DNA of 64,000 nucleotides from Candidatus Electrothrix communis (GTDB lineage: Bacteria; Desulfobacterota; Desulfobulbia; Desulfobulbales; Desulfobulbaceae). The position numbers and the translations under genes were made by a program. The notes below the pieces were generated by a model that worked only from the letters and a program-made list of their open reading frames with translations, searched no databases and was not told where the DNA came from. The stretch's first letter is position 1. Each line of letters starts with the position of its first letter. The stretch lies in assembly GCA_030644725.1 (NCBI GenBank), contig CP130629.1, positions 1,776,795 to 1,840,794 on the forward strand, given 5' to 3'. Shown here in pieces: positions 1 to 56,519 of the stretch.

Positions 1-120
1 TCTTGGGATACTGTTCGGGCCGCTAACGCTTGTGATAGCTGACATAGCGGGATAAGCAAACAGGACAGAAGAGAGAATTACTGCGGCATTAAGGATTCTG
101 ACAGGTTTAGCTAGGTACAT
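1..120 (-). CDS. Exported protein, N-terminal fragment (runs off the left edge)
   Basis: The reverse strand encodes 40 residues that run out of the window. The start is an ATG at 118-120, preceded by a strong ribosome-binding site (AGGAGG in an A-rich context, about 8 nt upstream). The peptide is a clear Sec signal: a basic start with K5 and R8, a hydrophobic core of about 15 residues, and an AMSA-type cleavage site near residue 28, after which mature sequence begins. Only the first dozen mature residues are visible, so function cannot be named. The 5' region is open to position 516, with no partner gene on this strand. Confidence 0.7.
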   Translation of the reverse strand, partial: MYLAKPVRILNAAVILSSVLFAYPAMSAITSVSGPNSIPR

Positions 121-171
121 AATATATTCCTCCTTTTTTTAATAAAAAACATAAAATTATCATATGATAAT

Positions 172-378
172 TCATATCTCAATCATATTAGCCATCAGGT
201 TAAGATTGTCAAGTGTTTCTTGACCTCTCTTTTCGACTCCGACCCTGAACGCTTTCTCACCAGAACAACAAATCATTCCGTGATAGATATGATCAGACTG
301 CGCAGTTGCGTAGATCTGATAGAGTGCAACGAAATCAGACGATTCGAGCAATACGTTGTCCGCTTTCGCTTCACTCAA
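172..378 (-). CDS. Possible small hypothetical protein (68 aa)
   Basis: A short reverse frame opens with TTG at 376-378 and ends at 172. The product is soluble, with two adjacent cysteines near residue 37 and no signal or membrane segment. Only a weak ribosome-binding site (TAGGT) lies upstream, and an in-frame stop occurs a few codons before the start. The composition looks like protein, but the frame also lies opposite a non-coding stretch upstream of the PHP-UvrD gene, so it may be chance. I do not recognise a family. Confidence 0.25.
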   Translation of the reverse strand: MSEAKADNVLLESSDFVALYQIYATAQSDHIYHGMICCSGEKAFRVGVEKRGQETLDNLNLMANMIEI

Positions 379-516
379 GCAGACCTACTTAGCTGTCTCT
401 GTTCCGCCTGACCTCTCCCTCTTTCAGTTGACATCCCCCCTACATGGCTTTAAGTTGCGCCCACGTAACCTCCCCAGCACCGGAAACCCAAGCAACCTTA
501 GCCAGCAGCGTACCCC

Positions 517-3500
517 ATGCCCTATATCGCCGACCTCCACATCCACTCCCGCTACTCCAGAGCCACCAGCAAGGCCAGTAACCTGCACGGCCTAGCAGCC
601 TGGGCAGCCATCAAAGGTATTGACGTTGTCGCCACCGGCGATTTCACCCATCCGGGTTGGTTCGCCCATCTGGCCGATAACCTGGAACCGGCAGAGCCTG
701 GTCTCTTCCGCCTCAAAAAGCACCCGAACTTTGACGAGCTGGCCCCGATTCTTCCACCCGGTGTACAGCCGGACACCTCGCATATCCGTTTCCTCCTCAG
801 TGCCGAAATCAGCTCAATCTATAAGCGAGGCGGCAAGGTGCGCAAGATCCATAACCTGCTCTATGCCCCTGATCTGGACGCGGCCCGGCGGATCAACACG
901 GTGCTGGCCGGGATCGGCAATCTCCATTCCGACGGACGGCCCATCCTCGGTCTGGATTCCAAGATCCTCCTGGAAATCCTGCTGGAACAGGCCCCGGAAG
1001 GTTTCCTGGTGCCCGCCCATATCTGGACCCCCTGGTTCTCCCTGTTCGGGTCCAAGTCCGGCTTTGACGCCATTGAGGAATGCTTTGACGACCTGAGCAG
1101 CGAGATCTTTGCTCTGGAGACCGGCCTGTCTTCAGACCCGGAGATGAACCGCCATATCTCGGCCCTGGATCGCTTTTCCCTGATCTCCAATTCCGACTGC
1201 CATTCCCCCTCCAAGCTGGGCCGGGAGGTCAATATCTTTGCCACGGACCTGAGCTTTCCCGCCCTCAAGGAGGCCCTGCGTAACCCCGTTGATGAGCAAG
1301 GCAAGCAACGCTTCCAGGCCACGGTGGAATTCTACCCGGAAGAGGGGAAGTACCATTGCGACGGCCACCGCAAATGCGGGGTCTGCCTGGAACCTGCCCA
1401 AACCGTAGAGGCAGAGGGTATCTGCCCACAATGCGGCAGACCCATGACCATAGGGGTGCTCTACCGGGTCATGGAGCTGGCTGATCGGGAGAAGCCGCAA
1501 TGGCCCGAGGGTTCTCCGGCGGTCCACAGCCTGATTCCGCTGGCCGAGATGCTGGGCGAACTCTTCAACTGCGGACCAACCACCAAGAAGGTGAACACGG
1601 TTTACGGCAAGCTGATCAATCAATTCGGTTCTGAATTCACCATCCTCTTGGATACACCCATTGAGGAGCTGAATACGGCCTCGCCCCTGCTGGGCACGGC
1701 TATCCAGCGGGTGCGGGAAAATAAGGTCATCCGCAAGCCCGGCTTTGACGGCGAGTTTGGAGTAATCCGGGTCTTTGAGGAGCATGAACAGGAGCAACTG
1801 GCTGGTCAGCTCAACCTTTTCGGCGTGACCCCGGCCAAGCCCCGCAAGAAAAAGACCAAAACAGCGGTGATCAGCAGGCAGAAGACCCAGGTCAGCCGCC
1901 TACCTGCCAAAAAAACACTGAACCCGGAACAGCAGGCTGCGGTGGAATCTGAGGCTGGCCGAATTATTGTCCAGGCGGGACCGGGTACCGGCAAGACCCA
2001 CACCCTGGTGCAGCGGGTTGTCCGGCTGTTGGCGCAGAAGCAGGGGGCGATCACGGTCATCACCTTTACCAATAAGGCAGCCGAAGAGCTCCGCCAGCGA
2101 CTGGCCTCGGTGAATGAAAAAGAACGCGGGGAAAACAAAGAACAATCTGTACGGGTGGATACCTTCCACGGCTTCTGTCTCCATTGGCTGCGCCAGCATA
2201 ATCCCGATCTGCAACTAGCCGGGCCGGAAATGCGGACCTGGATTTTCCGCAAACAGTATCCCCAGCTCAGCGAGCAGGAGCGCAAACAACTGCGCCGGGA
2301 GGCAGGTCTCTTTCTTGCTGAGCAGGCGGTCCTACAGAAACCGGCTGATTACCCGGAGGCCGCCCTCCACCTCCAGCCCTATTTCACCTCTCTTCGCGAA
2401 CAGAACCTGCTGGATCTGGATGAGATCGTCCCGGCCTGCACCGCCCTGTTACTCAACGACACAAATTTCGGTGAGGCGCTGCGTAAGTCCACGACCCATC
2501 TACTGGTGGATGAATTTCAAGACCTGAACGCGGCCCAGTACGAGCTGGTTCGCCTGCTGGCTGAAACAGCCACCGTCTTTGCCATCGGTGACCCGGATCA
2601 GGCCATTTACGGCTTTCGCGGTTCCCGGCCTGCCTGGTTCCAACGCTTTGTCACGGAAAAGCAGCCCGAGTTCCACCGGCTGACAACCAATTACCGCAAC
2701 GGGGCTGATATCCTCAAGGCTGCCGAGACGGTCATTGCGACCAATCATGCCAATCATGCGGAGAGGGAAGTGCGCGAGAAAAACGGGGCCGAGGCTGCCT
2801 CGGACAACACCGGTGCTCTCTTTCGCCACCTTGCCCCGAGTGCCAAGGCAGAGGCTAATTTCATTGCCGGGCAAATCCAACAGCTCATCGGCGGCACCTC
2901 CCACCGGGAGATTGATCGCATCAGTGGATCAACAAACAACGCGGATGGCGGCCTGGCCCTGTCCGACATTGCCGTGCTCTATCGCACCTCTCGGCAGGCC
3001 GAAGCCGTTGCCCAGGCCCTGGCCGAACGTACCCTTCCCTGCCAGCTGGTTGATATGCAGCCCTTTTACCTGCACGGCGAGATAAAACTCCTCTACTACC
3101 GGCTTCTGCTGGCCGCAGAGCGGATTGATGCAGCAGAGCTGCTCTTTCTTCTTGCTCAGGAAAAGGGTATCGGTGCCAAGACCCTGGCTGCTGCCGAGTC
3201 GGTGCTCAGCCAGGACAAGGGTAGGCAACCGCTGGCGGCCCTTTCTGCGTCTATGTTACCAAAAACGCTTGAGAAATGTGTCAGAAAGTTGAACGAGCTT
3301 GCGGCTCGACTGACCGAGCAAGAATCTGTTACTGATGCGGTGGATCTGCTCTGCGAAGAATACGCATTGGACCGGGAAGCGCCTGAGCTGATCCGCTTCC
3401 GCCAGATGGCCACCTCTGCCCCTTCCCTGCCCGCCTTTGCCGAGCATCTCCGCAAGCACCAGGACAGCCTGATCTACGATGAGCGGGCCGAGGCTGTGCT

Positions 3501-3840
3501 GCTGGCCACCCTGCATGCAGCCAAGGGACTGGAGTTCCGGGCCGTATTTATGGTCGGATGCGAAGAGGGGCTCCTGCCCCTGAGCCCGCGCAGCGAACTT
3601 ACCGCAGAGGCGGAGCAGGAGCATATTGCCGAGGAACGGCGGCTCTTCTTTGTCGGTATGACCAGGGCTGCTGAGGTGTTGTACCTGACTGGGGCCAAGG
3701 AGCGGCTGGGCTTTGCCGGAGTTGAGCAACGGACGCCGTCCCGCTTCCTGAGTGAGGTTCCGCCGGAGCTGTTGCAGGATCCGCTGATTGTGCAGAAGCA
3801 GCAGAAAAAGAAAGCAGGGAAGCAGTTGAGTTTGTTTTAA
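517..3840 (+). CDS. EndoQ-like PHP endonuclease fused to UvrD/Rep helicase
   Basis: This is a 1107-residue fusion. Residues 1-270 form a PHP metal-dependent phosphoesterase with the DLHIHSRYS motif at 6-14. A C4 zinc finger follows (CxxC at 287/290 and 303/306), then a helical segment to about 425. That order is the layout of endonuclease Q (TIGR00375-type), which nicks 5' of deaminated bases. Residues 460-1090 are an SF1A helicase with Walker A GPGTGKT at 488-494 and Walker B LLVDEFQD at 662-669. Two sliding-clamp-binding pentapeptides occur: QLNLF at 431-435 on the inter-domain linker and QLSLF at 1103-1107 on the extreme C-terminus. The start ATG lies five codons before the first PHP ligand, so it is well fixed despite a weak ribosome-binding site. 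A lesion-nicking and unwinding role on DNA is inferred. The gene stands alone. Confidence 0.9.
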   Translation: MPYIADLHIHSRYSRATSKASNLHGLAAWAAIKGIDVVATGDFTHPGWFAHLADNLEPAEPGLFRLKKHPNFDELAPILPPGVQPDTSHIRFLLSAEISSIYKRGGKVRKIHNLLYAPDLDAARRINTVLAGIGNLHSDGRPILGLDSKILLEILLEQAPEGFLVPAHIWTPWFSLFGSKSGFDAIEECFDDLSSEIFALETGLSSDPEMNRHISALDRFSLISNSDCHSPSKLGREVNIFATDLSFPALKEALRNPVDEQGKQRFQATVEFYPEEGKYHCDGHRKCGVCLEPAQTVEAEGICPQCGRPMTIGVLYRVMELADREKPQWPEGSPAVHSLIPLAEMLGELFNCGPTTKKVNTVYGKLINQFGSEFTILLDTPIEELNTASPLLGTAIQRVRENKVIRKPGFDGEFGVIRVFEEHEQEQLAGQLNLFGVTPAKPRKKKTKTAVISRQKTQVSRLPAKKTLNPEQQAAVESEAGRIIVQAGPGTGKTHTLVQRVVRLLAQKQGAITVITFTNKAAEELRQRLASVNEKERGENKEQSVRVDTFHGFCLHWLRQHNPDLQLAGPEMRTWIFRKQYPQLSEQERKQLRREAGLFLAEQAVLQKPADYPEAALHLQPYFTSLREQNLLDLDEIVPACTALLLNDTNFGEALRKSTTHLLVDEFQDLNAAQYELVRLLAETATVFAIGDPDQAIYGFRGSRPAWFQRFVTEKQPEFHRLTTNYRNGADILKAAETVIATNHANHAEREVREKNGAEAASDNTGALFRHLAPSAKAEANFIAGQIQQLIGGTSHREIDRISGSTNNADGGLALSDIAVLYRTSRQAEAVAQALAERTLPCQLVDMQPFYLHGEIKLLYYRLLLAAERIDAAELLFLLAQEKGIGAKTLAAAESVLSQDKGRQPLAALSASMLPKTLEKCVRKLNELAARLTEQESVTDAVDLLCEEYALDREAPELIRFRQMATSAPSLPAFAEHLRKHQDSLIYDERAEAVLLATLHAAKGLEFRAVFMVGCEEGLLPLSPRSELTAEAEQEHIAEERRLFFVGMTRAAEVLYLTGAKERLGFAGVEQRTPSRFLSEVPPELLQDPLIVQKQQKKKAGKQLSLF

Positions 3841-3952: not shown

Positions 3953-5080
3953 GGCACTGGTTCCGTATGGTTACTAGCGTATATAGTTAATATTTTAGTT
4001 GATTACTGTGTTAGCTTGTGTTAGTCTCTACCTGAAAAAAGGAGACTAACATGAGCTTTATTAATAATCATTGTCCTGAATGTGAAGGGACTTCATACCG
4101 GATTTTAAAAAATATGTAATTCGTTGCGGGGAAGAACGCCAACTTTATAAATGTAATGATTGTTATTCTTGTTTTTCAGAAACAAGACATACGATGCTGG
4201 AAGGGTTGAAAACTCCTGTTTTCCGAATCATAATGATATTGACCGCATTGAGTGAAGGCCTGGGAATCAATGCGGCGACAAGAGTTTTTTCTGTTGGAAA
4301 AACAGTATTTATCGTTGGCAGAATCGATTGTCATCGTTACAACAAACCTTAATGCTGTATTCATTGTGTCAACAATTTATTCAATTAATTGTTGAAGGAG
4401 ATGAGCTGTATACCAAAATCGGCAAAAACGTTCCGCCAAGCGAATCTGAAGGATGGACCATAGTATTAATGGATAGAGCGTCTCGTTTTATTTGGGCGTT
4501 AGAGTGTGGAAAAAGGGATGAACGGCTGTTCAAAACAGCAATACGTATATTGCTTAAAGTCATCAGGAAGACAGATGATCTCACACTCTTGACTGATGGT
4601 GAACGACGTTATGGGAATATATTGTTTGAAATTTGTCATGAACTTTTGAAAACGGGAAAGAGGGGGCGTCCTCGTAAGACCCTGAAGAAAGGCGTTAAGG
4701 TAAGAGTGAAGAATAAAGGGTCGCAAAAAAGAAACCTGGACGCAAGCGAAAAAAATATCAGGCTCCACAATCAGAACATCCCGATACAACTCAAAATATA
4801 GAAAATCCCGACATTCATGCGAATCATGTGGAAGGATTCAATGCCGCTCTCAGGAGGATGTGCTCGGCTTTCCGTAGAAAAACTAATACTTACGCTAAAA
4901 AAGTTGAAAGACTCCAGGAGCGGTTGAATGTGATATGGATAATTCATAATTTTGTTCGCGTCCATTACACAACCAAAGAAGTTCCGGCGGTAACGCTAGG
5001 TGTTATTGAAGAAAGATTGACCCTTGAAGATATTTTAAGATTAAAAGGGGTTAACAGCTGAGCCAAGCGGAACCAGTGCC
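3953..5080 (+). mobile_element. IS1/IS1595-like insertion sequence, complete ends, decayed transposase
   Basis: The element is 1128 bp, bounded by perfect 13-bp inverted repeats (GGCACTGGTTCCG at 3953-3965 and its complement at 5068-5080). It is flanked by an 8-bp direct duplication CGATTATC (3945-3952 and 5081-5088). An 8-9 bp duplication and a zinc-ribbon DDE transposase fit the IS1 group in its long form, or the related IS1595 family. The first ~100 bp are non-coding leader. Confidence 0.88.
4051..5061 (+). pseudogene. IS1-like transposase, frameshifted
   Basis: The start ATG at 4051 has a GGAG ribosome-binding site ten bases upstream. The N-terminus carries a zinc ribbon (HCPEC, then YKCNDCYSC after the first break), then helix-turn-helix-like sequence, then a catalytic domain with an EGDELYTKIGK segment, LTDGERRYG, and a closing HVEGFNAALRRM block typical of IS1 transposases. 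Three frame breaks occur, near 4110, 4330 and 4725. The first and third lie on A6 runs and are cured by one extra A; the middle is cured by one extra base near 4331. No single open frame covers the catalytic residues, so the copy is defective unless frameshifting occurs. Confidence 0.8.
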
Positions 5081-5603: not shown

Positions 5604-7541
5604 TCAGCCAAGCAGCTCCTGCACAGTGGCGGCAATGGATGCACCGTCCATACCCTGCTGTTTGTACAGATCCGCAGGACTGCCAGAACCGCCATACTGC
5701 TTCACCCCGAGGCGACGCAGTTTCGGGGAAAGCCCCTTATCCATCAGAGTCACGGCAACAGAGGCACCCAGGCCGGTTGCTGCATGATGATCCTCCACCG
5801 TGACAATGGGACCAAGAGCAGCCGCATCAACAACAGCCTGCTCATCCATGGGTATCAGGGAGGCCATATTGAGTACACCCACGGATTTTCCGGCATCTTT
5901 CAAGATCTGCCAAGCCTCGATACAGGCCGGGGTGACCGCACCATAGGTGATAATGGTGGCATCAGCCCCCTGACGCAGCCAGTCGGCCTTGCCCGGTGTG
6001 AAGACATAATCCGCATCAAAAAAGACCGATCCGTCTTCCTTGGTGACGGTCGGCATCTTGGACCGCCCCATGCCGACAAAATGATTTCCTGGCGCACAGG
6101 CGATGTGACGGATAATCCGATCGGTCTGATTAGGATCACAGGGAACAAAGGCAGAAAAACGGAAGTAGTTTTTCATCAGCCCCAGGTAATCGATACACTG
6201 ATGGGTAGGTCCGTCCTCGCCTACATCCAGACCTATATGAGTTGCCACCACCTTGATATTGGTGTGATTAAAGTCGTTTAAGCGATTCTGGTTATAGACC
6301 TCAGAGACCGCAAAGGAACCAAAGGTGGAAAAGAAGGTGACCATATTCTCACAGCTCATGGCACCGGCAGTAGCCGCAGCATGATGCTCCTGAATACCCA
6401 GCTCCAAGTATCCTTCCGGCGAATGCTTGTGAAAATCACCCATCTTGACTGAGCCTTCCAGATCGCAGGACACCCCGACAATCACCGGCGGCTGGCCCGG
6501 CTTATTATTGGCCTCAGCCAAGCCCAACAGGGCATTGCCGTAACCGGAACGGCAGTCAGTCTTTTCATCAGCAGCATAGACGATGGGCGCACCCGGCTGT
6601 ATCTCAGGATAATCAGCCCGAGGCGGCATAATGGTCGCGGTGCTCACCGGCTCTTTGCGCCGCTCCTGCCATTGGGCAAAATCATTGTCCATGCCCAGCT
6701 CAGCCAGGGCATCAGCCAACATATCCGCAGGCAGGGGAGAGCCATGATATTTAGCCTTGTTCTCCATAAAGGAAATGCCCTTACCCATGACGGTCTTCAC
6801 GACTAGCACCGTAGGCACCCCGCTGATGTTGCGGTAGGCATCCCGCATGGCCTGATACAGGGCCTGATAATCATGACCCTCTTTGACGACCACGGCATTA
6901 AAGCCCAGACCGCCGTAGAGCTTCTGCATGCACTGCGGCATGATATCTTCAGTATTACCGCAAATCTGAAGTTTATTTCGGTCAATAAGCACGGTTAAGT
7001 TATCCAGCTTATACTTGACCGCATGGCGAATAGCCTCAGCAATCTGACCCTTCTGCTGCTCACCGTCCCCCATCAGACAGAAGACCCGATTTTTTTTGCC
7101 TTGGATCTTAAAGGCATGGGCCATACCCACGGCCGTAGACAGGCCTTGGCCCAGGTTGCCGGTATCCCATTCCACACCGGGCACGATGGATTCCACATGA
7201 CCGGGAAAACCCGAGCCGGTACGGCGGAAGCCGATCAAAAAATCCTCTTCGCTGAAATAACCGTTCTCAGCCAATACGCTGTACACACCCGGTGAAATAT
7301 GACCGATGGATTCCACCATCCGATCACGCTCCTCTGTACGAGGATTGGCCGGATCATGGTTGATCAAGCCATAGGCCACCAGCAGCATATCCAATGAGGA
7401 CAGGGACCCGCCCGGATGACCGGAGGCTGCCAGCGAGGTGGACAGCAGGATGCGGCGAGCGCAGCGGGTACGCATCTCCTTCAGGGTTGCGATTTCCTCA
7501 GCCGTCAATTCAGACGCAGCAGGATTAAACTTCAGAGACAT
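5604..7541 (-). CDS. tkt: Transketolase
   Basis: The full-length 645-residue enzyme moves two-carbon ketol units between sugar phosphates in the non-oxidative pentose phosphate pathway, using thiamine diphosphate. The N-terminal cofactor domain has SGHPGGSLS at 40-48 and the ThDP motif GDGEQQKG starting at 158 and closing at N189. The central pyrimidine domain follows at about 325-490, with a GIQEHHA catalytic glutamate segment, then the C-terminal domain. The ATG at 7539-7541 follows a good GAGGAG ribosome-binding site. It is a single-gene unit: a strong terminator lies behind it and about 190 bp separates it from the SET gene upstream. Confidence 0.95.
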   Translation of the reverse strand: MSLKFNPAASELTAEEIATLKEMRTRCARRILLSTSLAASGHPGGSLSSLDMLLVAYGLINHDPANPRTEERDRMVESIGHISPGVYSVLAENGYFSEEDFLIGFRRTGSGFPGHVESIVPGVEWDTGNLGQGLSTAVGMAHAFKIQGKKNRVFCLMGDGEQQKGQIAEAIRHAVKYKLDNLTVLIDRNKLQICGNTEDIMPQCMQKLYGGLGFNAVVVKEGHDYQALYQAMRDAYRNISGVPTVLVVKTVMGKGISFMENKAKYHGSPLPADMLADALAELGMDNDFAQWQERRKEPVSTATIMPPRADYPEIQPGAPIVYAADEKTDCRSGYGNALLGLAEANNKPGQPPVIVGVSCDLEGSVKMGDFHKHSPEGYLELGIQEHHAAATAGAMSCENMVTFFSTFGSFAVSEVYNQNRLNDFNHTNIKVVATHIGLDVGEDGPTHQCIDYLGLMKNYFRFSAFVPCDPNQTDRIIRHIACAPGNHFVGMGRSKMPTVTKEDGSVFFDADYVFTPGKADWLRQGADATIITYGAVTPACIEAWQILKDAGKSVGVLNMASLIPMDEQAVVDAAALGPIVTVEDHHAATGLGASVAVTLMDKGLSPKLRRLGVKQYGGSGSPADLYKQQGMDGASIAATVQELLG

Positions 7542-7727
7542 TATAAGCTCCTCTTATATAATAAAAAAGTTCGGACAAAAAAAATTGCTCGGTTAATTCG
7601 TATACTCTCGCCCTACAGGTACTACACGCAACCCGTTATAATACAATGTTCCAGAAAGACAATGAGAAAGAGCAGGAAGGGATGATTTGTCCGCCCGTGC
7701 TGGCGAGCCGCCGCTATGAAACGGTTC

Positions 7728-8105
7728 TCAGGAGATATCGTCCGCAGTAGTTCGGTGGTCTTCTAAAAAATAATCAACCGTGAGTTCAGTGCCTTCAGGA
7801 ATATCAACAAGAGCCCTATCGCCCTCATTATCCGGTTGAAGATTATGCTCAAAGCTATGATTCATATACTGAGCGTTATCAAGAGACATACAGTAATTGT
7901 CGGCTCCAAAGGGATAGGGAACCGCATGGGAGACGATAAAATCCTTTGCTGATTCCGGGAGTTCGTTGAGCTGCTCAGGGGGCATAATAATATCAATCAA
8001 GGGATCAAATTTCCAAACCAGGCTTCCTTTTGCGATAAACTCACCGGCAAAAACACCTACGCCGTGAATGAGGCTTTTATCAAGATAGGTTTTAACTAAC
8101 AGCAT
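7728..8105 (-). CDS. Small SET-domain protein (putative lysine methyltransferase)
   Basis: This 125-residue protein is essentially a bare SET domain. It shows GVGVFAGEFIAKGSLV at 15-30 (the G-x-G-x-FA entry strand), YMNHS at 80-84 (the NHS AdoMet-binding knot) and ELTVDYF at 107-113 (the catalytic D-Y). No pre-SET or post-SET cysteine cluster is present. SET enzymes methylate lysine side chains; the bacterial short forms have unknown substrates. The gene starts 25 bp after the second carboxynorspermidine dehydrogenase gene on the same strand and so ends the polyamine operon. The SET call is firm, the substrate unknown. Confidence 0.82.
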   Translation of the reverse strand: MLLVKTYLDKSLIHGVGVFAGEFIAKGSLVWKFDPLIDIIMPPEQLNELPESAKDFIVSHAVPYPFGADNYCMSLDNAQYMNHSFEHNLQPDNEGDRALVDIPEGTELTVDYFLEDHRTTADDIS

Positions 8106-8130
8106 CAGTGCTCCGCTTGTATTCGAAAGA

Positions 8131-9354
8131 TCAGGAGATCAAAGTTTGTGTTTCAGTGGGCAGGCCCATAGTCCCCAGCAGCTCAAGAAAAGGATCAGGG
8201 TCAAGCTCTTCCACATTTTTCATGGCCTGCACATCCCATCTGCCGTCAGCTATCAACAGAGCAGCAGCAACCGGCGGCACCCCGGCGGTATAGGAGATAG
8301 CCTGCGACTCAACGTCTTTATAACATTGCTGATGATCACAGATATTATAGATAAAAATCTTTTTCTCCCTACCGTCTTTTTCCCCTTTTATCAGGTTACC
8401 AATACAGGTTTTACCGGTATAACCGGGTGCCAAGGAAGCCGGGTCGGGCAGACAGGCCTTGAGCACCTTGAGCGGAACCACCTCCAATCCTTCAGCTGTT
8501 GTTACGGTTTTATGGTTTAATAAACCGATATTCTCAAGCACGTTGAAACAATTGATATAATGGTCGCTGAAGCCCATCCAGAAACGAACGGCATCCACAT
8601 CAAGGTTGACGGACAGAGAATGCACCTCGTCATGGCCCATCAGATAGAGTTTATGCCTGCCGACTTCCGGAAAATCATACTCCATTGACCGGCTGTGATG
8701 TTCACATTCCTTCCATTGCCGATCTTCCCAATAACCGACCTGCTCGACAATCTCCCGCAGGTTGATTTCAGGATCAAAATTGGTGGCAAAAAATTTACCG
8801 TGATCACCGGAGTTGACATCCATAATGTCAATCTCGTTGATTTTATCAAACTCATGCTTTAAAGCATACGCACTGTAGGCATTGACAACTCCCGGATCGA
8901 ATCCGGCTCCTAAAACAGCGGTAACTTTATTTTGTTCGCATAACGATCTGCGCTTCCATTCAAATTCAGCATACCAAGGATAGTCGGCATTAACCACCTC
9001 AACCTCCTCATGAACCGCCGTGTCAATATACGCAGCCCCGGTTTCAATACAGGCATCCAGAATGGGCATATTGACAAAGGCGGTGCCGACATTGATCACG
9101 ATTTCCGAACCGGTTTCCTTGATCAGCCGTACCACATTATCGATTTCACCGGCGTCCACCTGCTTGGCAGAGAGTTTTTTTCCAGTATCCTTAAGATTGC
9201 CTTTTTCCCTGATACCGGTAATAATCTTTTCGCATTTGCTTCGGGTTCGTGAGGCAAGGCAGATATCACCGAGCAAATCATTATATTGGCCGCATTTATG
9301 GGCTGCCACCGCCCCTACCCCGCCAGCCCCGATAATCAACACATTTTTTTTCAT
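8131..9354 (-). CDS. Carboxynorspermidine/carboxyspermidine dehydrogenase, paralogue 2
   Basis: A 407-residue member of the saccharopine dehydrogenase superfamily (CANSDH/CASDH). These enzymes condense aspartate beta-semialdehyde with diaminopropane or putrescine and reduce the Schiff base with NADPH to carboxynorspermidine or carboxyspermidine. The Rossmann motif IIGAGGVGAVAAHK lies at 7-20. The GAGFDPGVVNAY segment near 150 and PDPASLAPGYTGKT near 310 are family-wide. It begins 4 bp after the stop of a 407-residue paralogue that aligns without obvious gaps, so this is a tandem duplication in one operon with the matching decarboxylase. Which amine each copy prefers cannot be told from the sequence. 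Confidence 0.9.
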   Translation of the reverse strand: MKKNVLIIGAGGVGAVAAHKCGQYNDLLGDICLASRTRSKCEKIITGIREKGNLKDTGKKLSAKQVDAGEIDNVVRLIKETGSEIVINVGTAFVNMPILDACIETGAAYIDTAVHEEVEVVNADYPWYAEFEWKRRSLCEQNKVTAVLGAGFDPGVVNAYSAYALKHEFDKINEIDIMDVNSGDHGKFFATNFDPEINLREIVEQVGYWEDRQWKECEHHSRSMEYDFPEVGRHKLYLMGHDEVHSLSVNLDVDAVRFWMGFSDHYINCFNVLENIGLLNHKTVTTAEGLEVVPLKVLKACLPDPASLAPGYTGKTCIGNLIKGEKDGREKKIFIYNICDHQQCYKDVESQAISYTAGVPPVAAALLIADGRWDVQAMKNVEELDPDPFLELLGTMGLPTETQTLIS

Positions 9355-32326: not shown

Positions 32327-34663
32327 TCAAATCAAAAAGCCCTGCCTCCACCGGTTGCTCCTGGAAAAACGCTGCTGAAACCAATCATACTCCTGCCAAA
32401 ATTGGGGGTCAGCCCGGTTGACACCATACCTGACAAACCGGTCAATCTCCGCCTCGTCCACTTTCTTTTTACTGGCCAGCATGGTCAAAAAATCAGGGAG
32501 ATTTTTTTCATGCATTTTGAAAAAATAATTGGGATACGACCCGACAAAACCGGGCAGAATATCCATTCTATCCCTTGAGGAATCCAATACTCCTTTTTCC
32601 ATTATCATAGCAAAATACGAAACATTATCATGCCAACGGTTCACCACGATGGTGAAACAGACATCCTCTCTCTTGTCACGCTCAATTCGAACAAAGGCCA
32701 AATTGGCATTATAGTTGTTAAAATATGATAACAACGACGAATCCGGCCCGGTCACCGAACGAAATCCCCTCAAAATATCCTGATCTGTTTCCAAGCGAGC
32801 AGGTACTTGTGGATAGGCTCCGTCAGCCTTGATATAATTTACCGGATCAAAACGTATTCCTGCTGACTCCATGATCTCTTTACTCATAATATGCTCGACA
32901 AATTCTCTTTTCGGGTCATCCGAGGTAAAGGGAATTGCAGCTGGCATAAAAGAAGCTGTGACATCAAGTAAGGTGTTCTCCGCACCGATGTACCAGGACC
33001 GCTGCATCTTCATCCGCTGTTCCATCGGCATGAAATTAAGAAAACCAAGCTCACCTTCCCGACGTAACTTATCCATATACAGGCGCACTGCTGCCTGATG
33101 GCCCACATTGCCGTATACATCAAAGCCAGCAACTAGAGAATAATAAATTCGCTCAAGCAAGGGATAATCAATCACCCAAAGCGTTCGGGGCAGACTCCCC
33201 AGGACGCCCCGATGCACGGATGCGCTGTCAAAATGACGATACACTGTCAACAGAGGTGCATCTTTAACCCGTTCTCCTTTCCAGATCGCCTCATAGCCCA
33301 GGCCTTTATCATAATTGGCTGTATAAAAATGCTGCCTGGAGCGAAGATACCGAAGCGAAGCCTGGTGATATTGATTATTAAGCAGCCTGCCGATGGAAAA
33401 TTCAGAGCCCCGCTCAATGGGCATGATAAGATTATCCTGATGCATGCGAATAAAACCTGGATACTTGACGCTCAGATCAAATTCAGGACCAAGGAACATA
33501 ACCCAGAAATGGTCGTGGATCACATTAAGCGCAACCTGACCTCGACAGACCGGTCCACGAATGAACGTCTTAATAATATAATGCGCATTATCCAGGAGGA
33601 AGCGATATCGTGAGGCTGCCGGAATCTGCTCAAAAGCAACAAAGGGATTGGCACTGAGCTTGGTCCCGTAGCCGACAAGATGCGGCTCCTGCAACCATTT
33701 CGGCGCAATAAATAATGCCTTAAAGCGAGCCAGCATCCAGTAGTCAAAATGGACCACCATATGGGTTTTATGAACAATGGTGGAATGAATTTTCCGGAAA
33801 CGATAAAACAAGGTGTCGGTTTCCGGATCATCATAGGGCCGTACAGTAGCAATCAAATCAATGGGCTGACCTGAAGGAGTCCGGGACCGCACCAGTTCAT
33901 AATATTCATGAGTATCGGTCTCAAACTTAATATGGGCAAGAAAATAATGTTCATAGAGGTAACGCGACGTCACTCTATGCTTCGGATCAGCGGCATTCAG
34001 AAAGGCTTCCCAACGCTCTATCTGTCTCTGATCCGCCGATTTCGGGGTGACGAGCTCCTGCTGCTGTTCCAGGGTTGGCCCTTTCCCGCCCTGGGCCAGC
34101 CAACCGGCAACAAGCTCGAACTCCTCTTTCTTTAACGGAGGAAAACCAAAGGGCATTCCTCTATTGGGATGTGTATCCAGATAACTCCCCAACTCATGTC
34201 CATTTTCAGCACAGGTCAAGTCTTCTGCTTCTGACTGATACTCACCGCTGCTGTCAGGATGTTCCATCTTATGGGCAAGCAACTGCAAGAGAATAGAATT
34301 ATTCAAACCGGGTTCAGCAGTATTCTCTATTACTGTGTAGAACCCCTTGTCTCTCCATTTTTCAGTTGTCCGGGCATCAAAAAAGAGGCGGGTGGGATCC
34401 ATCGTTTGCAGACGATCAGCATTATAGATAGCCTCCTTGCTCGCTCCTCGGTCTAACCCTTCGTAAGAACTGAGCTTCAGCTGGCAGGGAGAATTATAGC
34501 AGGAATGGCAGACCACGCAGCGTTTGTCCAGCAGCGGTTTGACTTCACGCAAATAGTCGATGGGATGGTCCGGAAGCTGCACTTGAACAGGAGAAGGTGG
34601 TGTTGCGCAGGCGGTCAGCAAGGAAAAAAGGAGCGCGTATAAAAAAAGCTTCATGGCGGACAT
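32327..34663 (-). CDS. cti: Fatty acid cis/trans isomerase, haem lipoprotein
   Basis: The 778-residue protein matches periplasmic Cti enzymes, which convert cis double bonds of membrane phospholipid acyl chains to trans without energy input, stiffening the membrane under solvent, heat or toxic stress. A lipoprotein signal ends in LLTAC (C19). The covalent haem motif CVVCH lies at 49-53, followed by CYNSPCQLKLSS, a Cti hallmark. NRGMPFGFPPL near 170 is a further conserved block. Length is normal. The gene stands alone, with a GGAG ribosome-binding site and a palindromic region upstream that it shares with the divergent small secreted protein gene. Confidence 0.9.
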   Translation of the reverse strand: MSAMKLFLYALLFSLLTACATPPSPVQVQLPDHPIDYLREVKPLLDKRCVVCHSCYNSPCQLKLSSYEGLDRGASKEAIYNADRLQTMDPTRLFFDARTTEKWRDKGFYTVIENTAEPGLNNSILLQLLAHKMEHPDSSGEYQSEAEDLTCAENGHELGSYLDTHPNRGMPFGFPPLKKEEFELVAGWLAQGGKGPTLEQQQELVTPKSADQRQIERWEAFLNAADPKHRVTSRYLYEHYFLAHIKFETDTHEYYELVRSRTPSGQPIDLIATVRPYDDPETDTLFYRFRKIHSTIVHKTHMVVHFDYWMLARFKALFIAPKWLQEPHLVGYGTKLSANPFVAFEQIPAASRYRFLLDNAHYIIKTFIRGPVCRGQVALNVIHDHFWVMFLGPEFDLSVKYPGFIRMHQDNLIMPIERGSEFSIGRLLNNQYHQASLRYLRSRQHFYTANYDKGLGYEAIWKGERVKDAPLLTVYRHFDSASVHRGVLGSLPRTLWVIDYPLLERIYYSLVAGFDVYGNVGHQAAVRLYMDKLRREGELGFLNFMPMEQRMKMQRSWYIGAENTLLDVTASFMPAAIPFTSDDPKREFVEHIMSKEIMESAGIRFDPVNYIKADGAYPQVPARLETDQDILRGFRSVTGPDSSLLSYFNNYNANLAFVRIERDKREDVCFTIVVNRWHDNVSYFAMIMEKGVLDSSRDRMDILPGFVGSYPNYFFKMHEKNLPDFLTMLASKKKVDEAEIDRFVRYGVNRADPQFWQEYDWFQQRFSRSNRWRQGFLI

Positions 34664-54330: not shown

Positions 54331-54461
54331 ATTTTTTCCTGTGAATTCATATATACTTTTTGCCTAGTTGGAACAAAGTTGTTGTTTACATTTGCAAGCC
54401 GGAATGGTTAGCTCTCCGCAATAATATCCAACCGGTTTTTTCAATTAAGGAACTCCTGAGT

Positions 54462-56519
54462 ATGCTCCTGTCATGGAATGAAATCCGCAACCGGGCCTTT
54501 GCCTTTGCTGCGGAATGGAAGGACGAAACCAGCGAAAACGCTGAAGCAAAATCTTTCTGGGATGATTTTTTTAATGTGTTCGGAATATCCCGAAGGCGTG
54601 TTGCTTCCTTTGAAAAACACGTCAAAAAGGGAGATGGAAAAACCGGTTTCATTGATCTGCTCTGGAAAGGTACCCTGCTGATTGAACATAAATCAAAAGG
54701 AAAAGATCTTGACCGCGCCCATCATCAGGCAACTGATTATTTTTCCGGGCTGACGGATAAAGAGCTGCCCAAGTTCATTCTGATTTCCGATTTTGAGCGG
54801 TTCCGGCTCTATGATTTTGACCAGGACGGTGAAATCGTTGCCGAGTTCCAGCTTGCCGATCTTCCCGCCAATATAAAACATTTCGCCTTCATGGCGGGCT
54901 ATACAGTAACGGAAGTTCGCCCAGAAGATCCTGTCAATATCAAGGCGGCGGAAAAAATGGGCTGCCTGCATGATGCGCTCAAGGCCATCGGATATACAGG
55001 GCATGAGCTGGAGCGGTACCTTGTCCGCTTGCTCTTCTGTCTCTTTGCCGAAGATACCGGCATTTTCGAGAAAAATCTGCTCCGTGACCTTGTCCGGCTG
55101 CATACCGCTGAAGACGGCTCCGACCTTGCCGACCGGCTCAACCATCTTTTTCAGGTGCTCAATACGCCCCATGAACAACGACTGGCAACCTTGCCGGAAC
55201 ATTTGGCCGCCTTTGAATATATCAACGGTGACCTGTTCGCCGAATCCTTGTCCGTTGCCGGTTTTAATACCGATATGCGGAATATGCTGCTTGATGCCTG
55301 CGAGCTGGATTGGGCCGGGATTTCTCCGGCTATCTTTGGCAGCCTCTTTCAGTCGGTCATGGATGCGGAAGAGCGGCGAAACCTTGGAGCGCATTACACT
55401 TCTGAAGCCAATATTCTCAAGCTGATCAATCCTCTTTTTCTAGATGACCTGAAAGCCGAGTTTGCACGGGTCAGGAAAACGAAAAAGAAGCTGACCGAAT
55501 TCCACGCCAAACTGTCCCGCCTCACCTTTCTTGACCCGGCCTGCGGCTGCGGTAATTTTCTGGTTATCACCTACAGGGAATTGCGGCTCCTGGAGCTGGA
55601 AGTACTGAAAGTTCTCTATCCGGGCGGTCAGGGGGTTATTGATGTGGGGATGCTGATCCGGGTGAATGTGGATCAGTTTTTCGGTATTGAATACGAAGAG
55701 TTCCCGGCCCAGATTGCCCAGGTCGCCATGTGGCTGGTTGATCATCAGATAAACCTCAAGGTTTCCGAAGCCTTCGGCATGTACTTTGCCCGTATCCCCT
55801 TAAAATCCAGCGCTAATATTGTTCATGGAAATGCGTTGGAAATCCCTTGGGAAAGCGTGGTTGAGCAGGAGCGACTTTCCTATATTCTTGGTAATCCGCC
55901 CTTTATCGGTTCCAAATATCAGCAGCCGGAGCAACGGGCGGAGATTGCCGTTGTCAGCGGCAAGATAAAAGGCTGCGGTATTCTGGATTATGTCACGGGC
56001 TGGTATTTTCTTGCTGCGCAATATATTCAGGGCACCGGGATTGAATGCGCCTTTGTTTCGACAAATTCAATCGCCCAGGGAGAGCAGGTCGGGGTTTTAT
56101 GGAAAAAACTGGCTGTGGAAAATATCAGCATCAACTTTGCCCATCGCACCTTTCAGTGGAACAGCGAAGCAAGAGGCAAGGCCGCTGTGCATTGCGTGAT
56201 TATCGGTTTTGCCGCATTCAGCCGCAAGGAAAAGAGGATTTATGAGTATGATGATATTCGTTCGGACCCCCATGAAATAAAGGCGGCGAACATCAACGCC
56301 TATCTTGTTGATGGCCCTTCCGTTGTTCTTGAGAATCGAAGGAATCCCTTATGCGATGCGCCCAAGGTCGGCATTGGCAATCAGCCGATTGACGGCGGTC
56401 ATTATCTGTTCACGCCGGAAGAAAAAGCGGCATTTCTTGAAAGAGAACCCAAGGCAGCTCCATTTTTCAAACAATGGATAGGGGCAAGAGAATTTCTCAA
56501 TGGAATGAAAAAAAATTAA
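54462..56519 (+). pseudogene. MmeI-like type IIL restriction-methyltransferase, 5' part
   Basis: I start at ATG 54462 (AAGGA upstream), where homologues begin with SWNEIRNRAFAFA. An N-terminal PD-(D/E)xK nuclease has FIDLLWKGTLLIEHKSKG (D-x-ExK). A helical connector follows, then the gamma-class N6-adenine methyltransferase: LTFLDPACGCGNFL (motif I), GIEYEEFPAQIAQVAMWL, and YILGNPPFIGSKY (NPPF, motif IV). The frame continues to residue ~680 (WIGAREFLNG), where an ISAzo13-type element enters; the last four codons before the stop (MKKN) come from the element. The rest of the enzyme, the target recognition domain, lies at 57794-58472. Disrupted, the protein may keep neither cutting nor full specificity. 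Confidence 0.9.
56498..56502. repeat. Left target duplication CAATG of ISAzo13-type element
   Basis: A 5-bp direct repeat, with partner at 57794-57798. The next base G is shared with the element end, so the duplication could be counted as 5 or 6 bp. Confidence 0.7.

Follow-up and report, generated by a model that had tools for sequence, protein, structure and literature searches.

Endonuclease Q (EndoQ), a nuclease of deaminated DNA, leaves a 3'-OH and a 5'-phosphate at its nick (PMC4858679). Binding of the Thermococcus kodakarensis enzyme (TkoEndoQ) to PCNA through a C-terminal PIP box, with stimulated nicking, has been measured, and bacterial EndoQ homologues were already reported to carry clamp motifs towards the C-terminus (PMC4858679). 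The steps after the incision are a proposal in the literature: a 2015 paper drew strand displacement with Fen1, as well as a double incision with endonuclease V (EndoV) and a helicase (PMC4357722), and a 2021 review lists a helicase alongside FEN1 in the EndoQ pathway (PMC8438529). In the literature available to us, EndoQ is described as confined to Euryarchaea and a few bacteria. Here, we describe a gene of Candidatus Electrothrix communis (Desulfobulbaceae) in which an EndoQ-like nuclease and a UvrD-type helicase form one chain. It occupies positions 517-3840 of the window, that is, the whole stretch of 64,000 nucleotides that was analysed (GenBank assembly GCA_030644725.1, contig CP130629.1, positions 1,776,795 to 1,840,794). 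The joined EndoQ-UvrD design seems to be previously undescribed, and no published description of it was found in the open-licence literature searched.

The protein shares with known EndoQs (PfuEndoQ, TkoEndoQ, Bacillus pumilus EndoQ; TIGR00375, COG1379) the whole fold, the catalytic and pocket residues, and a clamp-binding motif behind the last EndoQ element. Unlike them, it is fused to a helicase, and its zinc site is probably His-Cys3 instead of Cys4. With UvrD, PcrA and Rep it has the complete fold and the examined helicase signature residues in common, yet in contrast to these it has an EndoQ at its N-terminus and a clamp motif at its C-terminus. The reading frame starts with ATG and is uninterrupted. 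For comparison we used 80 named loci, the best-scoring of 588 relatives confirmed in contigs, a selection biased to query-like, fused forms. The main parts of the gene are:

517..3840, + strand: whole gene, EndoQ-UvrD fusion, 1107 amino acids plus stop; same layout in 68/80 named loci
517..1806, + strand: EndoQ half, residues 1-430, with PHP catalytic domain, zinc-binding part and helical part; TIGR00375, and PfuEndoQ 5zb8/7k30 by sequence and fold
1810..1908, + strand: disordered linker, residues 432-464; predicted local distance difference test score (pLDDT) below 50 at 432-439 and 442-464; 13% column identity over 436-466
1912..3786, + strand: superfamily 1A (SF1A) helicase of UvrD/PcrA/Rep type, residues 466-1090; Pfam and PDB sequence matches; fold Z 30.3-39.5 to UvrD/PcrA/Rep chains, full length

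Six of the 68 fused named loci were dropped, five cut by contig ends and one (L011) with a shortened frame, which leaves 62 complete loci and, together with the query, a fused set of 63 proteins. The AlphaFold2 model built with the alignment of these 63 has a mean pLDDT of 87.5, with disorder at 432-464 and 1094-1107, and both folds were recovered from this single model (Foldseek, VIA-align). Residues 1-431 aligned with PfuEndoQ 5zb8 at Z 41.4 over 385 residues, the whole EndoQ fold being present. For residues 465-1093 the best match was Deinococcus radiodurans UvrD (Z 39.5, 582 residues aligned).

TIGR00375, the EndoQ family model, matches residues 107-417 with 180.6 bits (hmmscan), below its curated cut-off of 326.6, a value reached in none of 395 Desulfobacterota genomes versus 2 of 14 control genomes. 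We therefore name the protein EndoQ-like by fold and residues, and not a TIGR00375 equivalog. All PDB sequence matches of the first 430 residues were PfuEndoQ entries (5zb8, E 1.4e-53), and a 12-sequence profile of this half found PfuEndoQ with E 1.4e-69 over profile positions 5-414. By alignment with PfuEndoQ, the fusion has 21 additional residues before E97 and seven between E97 and H112. Conservation was scored in 68 fused proteins, namely the query, the 62 complete named loci and five loci of a Desulfobacterota family coded f43:

532..546, + strand: PHP motif D6-L-H8-I-H10; D6, H8 and H10 in 68/68, with numbering identical to PfuEndoQ
805..807, + strand: E97, equivalent of PfuEndoQ Glu76 by alignment; 68/68
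850..852, + strand: H112, equivalent of PfuEndoQ His84 by alignment; 68/68
1018..1020, + strand: H168, equivalent of PfuEndoQ His139 (ligand and steric gate) by alignment; 68/68
1123..1131, + strand: G203 and S205, equivalents of PfuEndoQ Gly169 and Ser171 (base pocket excluding T and A) by alignment; 68/68
1195..1203, + strand: PHP motif D227, H229; 68/68
1366..1434, + strand: probable His-Cys3 zinc site H284, C287, C303, C306, by alignment to PfuEndoQ and conservation

D6, H8, H10, D227 and H229 are residues that we take to be metal ligands of the PHP site; D42 and H45 are also fixed in 68/68. In PfuEndoQ, Glu76, His84 and His139 are zinc ligands whose alanine mutants, E76A included, are inactive, and His139, Gly169 and Ser171 form the steric gate (PMC8307549). 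The first-pass annotation, made from the sequence alone, had proposed to align residues 1-430 with a characterised EndoQ. In the alignment to PfuEndoQ every recorded metal and base-pocket residue is kept in all 68 proteins, and no PHP metal ligand is lost. The C4 zinc finger named in that annotation probably needs correction. The column of C290 holds a cysteine in just 37/68 proteins, and H284, C287, C303 and C306 align with cysteines 249, 252, 268 and 271 of PfuEndoQ, the histidine standing at the place of Cys249 in 67/68. For these reasons the site is probably His-Cys3 rather than C4; three of the four PfuEndoQ zinc cysteines are kept, and a histidine at the first place could still bind zinc.

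The helicase half is covered by Pfam UvrD-helicase (189 bits) and UvrD_C (129 bits) over residues 468-1060 (hmmscan), and matches E. coli UvrD (3lfu, E 3e-55) and other UvrD, PcrA and Rep structures with E 3e-55 to 7e-51. Its scores against the equivalog models pcrA, uvrD and rep (274, 259 and 261 bits) did not reach the cut-offs of 911, 1144 and 951. As classified from these matches, it is a member of the UvrD/PcrA/Rep superfamily, which does not imply orthology to pcrA, uvrD or rep. A dedicated family model for the fusion was not among the matches listed from NCBIfam, Pfam and PADLOC (for PADLOC, 25 of 52 rows). The eight helicase residues checked (Walker A, Walker B and arginine motifs) are unchanged in 68/68:

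1978..1998, + strand: Walker A GPGTGKT, residues 488-494; K493 and T494 in 68/68
2509..2523, + strand: Walker B DEFQD, residues 665-669; D665, E666 and Q668 in 68/68, D669 invariant in the 63-row alignment
3664..3666, + strand: R1050 of a C-terminal helicase motif, presumably motif VI; 68/68

The observation recorded in the first-pass annotation, that a PHP domain, a zinc-binding part and a helical part in EndoQ order precede an intact SF1A helicase, is thereby confirmed in sequence, fold and residues, with two corrections, one to the zinc site and one to the linker motif.

Two pentapeptides of clamp-binding type lie exactly where that annotation had placed them:

1807..1821, + strand: linker motif QLNLF, residues 431-435; QxxLF-type in 36/63 fused proteins
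3823..3837, + strand: C-terminal motif QLSLF, residues 1103-1107, the last residues of the protein; 53/63 fused proteins versus 0/706 controls

The published consensus is QL[S/D]LF or QxxLF, in which binding depends most on positions 1, 4 and 5 (PMC12309361). Both motifs fit it and stand in disordered places, and two canonical pentapeptides in one sequence occurred in 0 of 20000 shuffles of the protein. Across the 63 fused proteins, the C-terminal motif was scored as Q[LMI]xL[FL] within the last nine residues, and the controls were 706 other mechanical frames of at least 200 amino acids in the same loci, antisense ones included. A looser form of the motif was found in 59/63 fused proteins versus 2/706 controls, and the motif is kept in 13 of 14 fused representatives below 50% identity. 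Column identities over 1103-1107 are Q 0.95, L 0.86, S 0.33, L 0.95 and F 0.84, compared with 0.21 for the preceding tail, so that the conserved columns include the positions critical for clamp binding. As judged from the relatives, the C-terminal clamp motif is real and far above chance; the protein may bind the beta clamp (DnaN) through its motifs. E. coli UvrD, E. coli Rep and the two UvrD-like helicases examined from the same genome have no clamp motif at the C-terminus.

The linker motif is less uniform. Its strict form occurs in 9/63 fused proteins, with column identities of Q 0.59, L 0.78 and F 0.75 at positions 1, 4 and 5, versus 0.13 for the surrounding linker. Because the strict motif terminates 22 of 30 standalone EndoQs fetched from Desulfobacterota, the linker motif most plausibly represents the former C-terminus of EndoQ. 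The two clamp contacts that had been suggested are therefore borne out as motifs in this protein, and the C-terminal one in most relatives, but not the pair as a general property.

The fusion is a widespread type, found under many phylum labels. The 62 complete fused loci are assigned to Thermodesulfobacteriota (26), Melainabacteria (6), Actinomycetota (4), Binatota (3), Pseudomonadota (2) and, with one each, Bacteroidota, Spirochaetota, Calditrichota, Elusimicrobiota, Planctomycetota and Poribacteria; four have no phylum, and eleven are labelled "Myxococcota", mostly unplaced Deltaproteobacteria. Several of the single-phylum labels rest on one contig of a metagenome-assembled genome and may be misplaced. 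For example, in the EndoQ tree L078 (Rickettsiales) and L073 (Endomicrobium) stand among Gastranaerophilales, and L032 (Proteobacteria) stands beside a Desulfobacterales row; misbinning or transfer is therefore possible. Compared with the narrow range described for EndoQ, the enzyme was present in 255 of 395 Desulfobacterota genomes and in 52 of 97 genomes of the order of L037, a Gastranaerophilales member. Among the best 150 of the 255 Desulfobacterota matches, 93 belong to frames of 870 amino acids or more and 57 to frames below 600. All 16 long frames fetched from these genomes do carry the helicase, and sorting by open-frame length, which covered 229 of the 255 genomes, gave 95 fused and 134 standalone EndoQs. 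In the order of L037, where open-frame length stands for fusion, 40 of the 52 frames have at least 870 amino acids. In the window's own family, a frame of 1078-1188 amino acids was found in 7/7 genomes. The idea that the fusion is unique to this genome was rejected in view of these many fused relatives.

An unrooted EndoQ tree from a quick search places the 63 fused and 12 unfused rows in one 75-row group (Shimodaira-Hasegawa-like approximate likelihood ratio test, SH-aLRT, 96), with 12 changes of the fused/unfused state. The evolutionary distances of the two halves correlate (Mantel r 0.85, null maximum 0.09). One of the twelve unfused named loci, L072, is cut by a contig end and was dropped from the standalone set. 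L043 and L076 have EndoQ and helicase in two overlapping frames, the helicase frame ending in QLKLF and QLTLF, respectively; these split loci (L043 about 50-3534, L076 about 5998-8926) could be a real split, a frameshift or an assembly fault. In the remaining nine (L017, L018, L019, L020, L023, L024, L026, L038 and L065), which by tree position belong to the fused group, the chain stops in or before the linker.

What we observed, namely the architecture, the invariant active-site residues on record, the motifs with their degree of conservation and the distribution, forms the basis of the mechanism that we favour and consider fairly likely: an alternative-excision-repair enzyme for deaminated DNA, held at the clamp, in which an EndoQ nick is followed by UvrD displacement. 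The EndoQ half would flip the damaged nucleotide (uracil, hypoxanthine or abasic) into its pocket and then nick 5' of the lesion, leaving a 3'-OH and a 5'-phosphate. UvrD-type SF1A helicases unwind DNA in the 3' to 5' direction; the UvrD half could load at the nick, run 3' to 5' along the intact strand and displace the lesion-bearing 5' end. A clamp-bound DNA polymerase would then refill from the 3'-OH, and a flap nuclease and a ligase would complete the repair. The C-terminal QLxLF tail would tether the enzyme to the beta clamp, handing the incision to the polymerase, and the linker QxxLF may be an additional clamp tether in many Desulfobacterota. From the sequence and the model we infer each of these activities, the order of the steps, the direction of unwinding and the clamp binding. 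The separate helicase frames of L043 and L076 speak for this mechanism, as they keep the C-terminal clamp motif. Further points in its favour are the unchanged catalytic and pocket residues, the two folds in one model, the terminal motifs of fused and standalone proteins, the correlated distances of the halves and the repair genes of family f43 described below. In the pathway proposed for Thermococcales (polymerase, FEN1 and helicase; PMC4357722, PMC8438529), the sequence of steps is the same and a helicase is drawn; there, however, it is unnamed and separate, whereas here a UvrD-type helicase sits on the EndoQ chain. The occurrence of the fusion under many phylum labels suggests that a UvrD-type helicase acts next after EndoQ, and the conserved tail suggests that the meeting point is the sliding clamp. 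The first-pass annotation had called the protein a self-contained repair machine, which goes too far, because a polymerase, a flap nuclease and a ligase would still be required. Otherwise its interpretation is partly supported: it is plausible, has more backing than sequence alone could give, and is still a matter of what we infer.

The repair genes around the fusion differ between families. Apart from one EndoQ and one match to the uracil-DNA glycosylase (UDG) superfamily, the window's genome has two separate helicases, a PcrA-like one of 771 aa and a Rep-like one; EndoV was not found in it, nor in any of the seven genomes of its family. As all seven have the long frame, EndoV is not needed as a partner there. 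Family f43 consists of 16 genomes, each listed as 99 or 100% complete (G040, G076, G109, G138, G165, G190, G213, G235, G256, G277, G297, G317, G335, G353, G372 and G391). EndoQ is present in 16/16, in a frame of at least 1087 amino acids in 15, and a contig end lies 39 bases from the start of the remaining match. UDG (PF03167) and EndoV (PF04493) gave 0/16 matches each, compared with UDG in 353 of the 379 Desulfobacterota genomes outside f43. The nearest named relatives of six f43 genes fetched were Desulfovibrio, Pseudodesulfovibrio, Desulfovibrionales or an unplaced delta proteobacterium, which suggests that f43 is Desulfovibrionales-like. Among nine named genomes taken to be from Desulfovibrionales or near (completeness not given), seven, Nitratidesulfovibrio oxamicus included, have no UDG match, and L029 and L079 have one; among eleven other named genomes (completeness likewise not given), only L037 and L064 have no UDG match. 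Since no EndoV was found in the window's family and in f43, displacement followed by flap cleavage is likelier there than double incision. With no UDG and EndoV matches, f43 is a natural test of deaminated-DNA repair lacking those enzymes. A bolder claim, which we hold to be possible but doubtful, is that one clamp-tethered chain, which both incises and displaces, takes the place of glycosylase-initiated base excision repair, that it is in f43 the only recognisable starter of uracil/hypoxanthine repair among those searched for (other uracil routes, for example an ExoIII-type deoxyuridine endonuclease, were not searched), and that, more generally, it identifies the helicase so far missing from the EndoQ pathway.

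Several observations weigh against the proposed repair role. The window's own genome retains UDG, and EndoQ is rarer where UDG is missing (21/42 versus 234/353 UDG-positive among the 395 Desulfobacterota genomes, p 0.04); without f43, EndoQ is found in 5/26 UDG-negative versus 234/353 UDG-positive genomes (p 3e-6), and 10 of the 15 UDG-negative genomes listed from outside f43 are less than 90% complete. The pattern of f43 may go back to a single evolutionary event. EndoV co-occurs with fused EndoQs in 35/95 and with standalone EndoQs in 64/134 genomes (p 0.11). The linker motif is not general, as it is missing in 8/8 Desulfovibrionales-type rows, 4/4 Actinomycetes, 5/6 Gastranaerophilales and most other fused rows outside Desulfobacterota. 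Eleven complete close relatives have no helicase on the EndoQ chain and 0/11 have the strict terminal clamp motif; in nine of them the fetched flank showed no helicase frame, so the helicase is either dispensable there or supplied from elsewhere. Finally, the helicase tree, which has weak forks and a long Desulfovibrionales branch, does not set the fused helicases apart from UvrD/Rep, and more than one fusion is therefore possible. The trees are compatible with one fusion event followed by repeated loss, which is possible, and a second helicase acquisition on the Desulfovibrionales branch is possible as well.

Two further ideas were considered and rejected. A trade-off between EndoQ and UDG does not hold in Desulfobacterota, where the overall trend is opposite; in the order of L037, EndoQ occurs in 7/8 UDG-negative versus 45/89 UDG-positive genomes (two-sided p 0.065, kinship uncorrected). 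A replacement of EndoV by the helicase was dismissed, as fused and standalone EndoQs show no clear difference.

Other roles of the fusion are conceivable. SF1A helicases act at replication forks, and the UvrD half, with the clamp or starting from gaps, might remodel stalled forks while the EndoQ half inspects and nicks the exposed single strand, so that the protein would serve fork processing over lesion excision. The better conservation of the C-terminal motif, on the helicase side, than of the linker motif fits this order of events, as does the cleavage of uracil and hypoxanthine in single-stranded DNA by EndoQ (PMC11354406). Yet a nick in the single strand at a fork would presumably break the fork, and a hand-over that follows nicking accords just as well with the order of the halves and with the long flexible linker, which makes a helicase-first enzyme rather unlikely. 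The disordered, divergent linker could also mean that two independently acting repair enzymes are merely brought to the clamp without mechanical coupling, in line with the separate halves of L043 and L076 and with the nine relatives that show no nearby helicase. We find such co-recruitment unlikely, given the fusion under many phylum labels and the correlated divergence of the halves.

It is highly improbable that the protein serves against phages by cutting and unwinding genomes that hold deaminated bases, a possibility raised for Bacillus EndoQ (PMC8307549). An MmeI-type restriction-modification gene does lie some 50 kb off in the window, and PADLOC models of the Gabija helicase GajB match the helicase half. 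However, E. coli UvrD matches far better than GajB (3e-55 versus 5e-14), and the GajB matches were put down to general UvrD kinship. Also, the next three Pfam-matched genes encode a transketolase, a SET protein and a saccharopine dehydrogenase, and the presence of EndoQ is housekeeping-like, in all genomes of the window's family and of f43. In Gabija GajB, AddAB, AdnAB and RecBCD, a nuclease and an SF1A helicase cooperate, as in the make-up of the fusion, but fold and purpose of the nuclease are unlike those of EndoQ. Compared with these roles, clamp-held excision repair of deaminated DNA is the reading that we prefer.

A conserved operon partner was sought by clustering the flanking frames and rejected, the largest clusters looking like antisense shadows or general histidine kinases. 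The recurrent readable neighbours, named by eye, were obg-, proA/proB- and nadD-like, in 5 to 9 loci. Other genes in the window include:

4328-4801, + strand: 157-aa frame behind the fusion gene, without Pfam match, resembling by eye an insertion sequence (IS) transposase remnant
7728-8105, - strand: small stand-alone bacterial SET-domain protein (PF00856)
54360-56519, + strand: MmeI-type restriction-modification protein, possibly a broken gene, with a short target-recognition domain (68 of 207 profile positions)
32327-34663, - strand: fatty acid cis/trans isomerase (CTI), 778 aa

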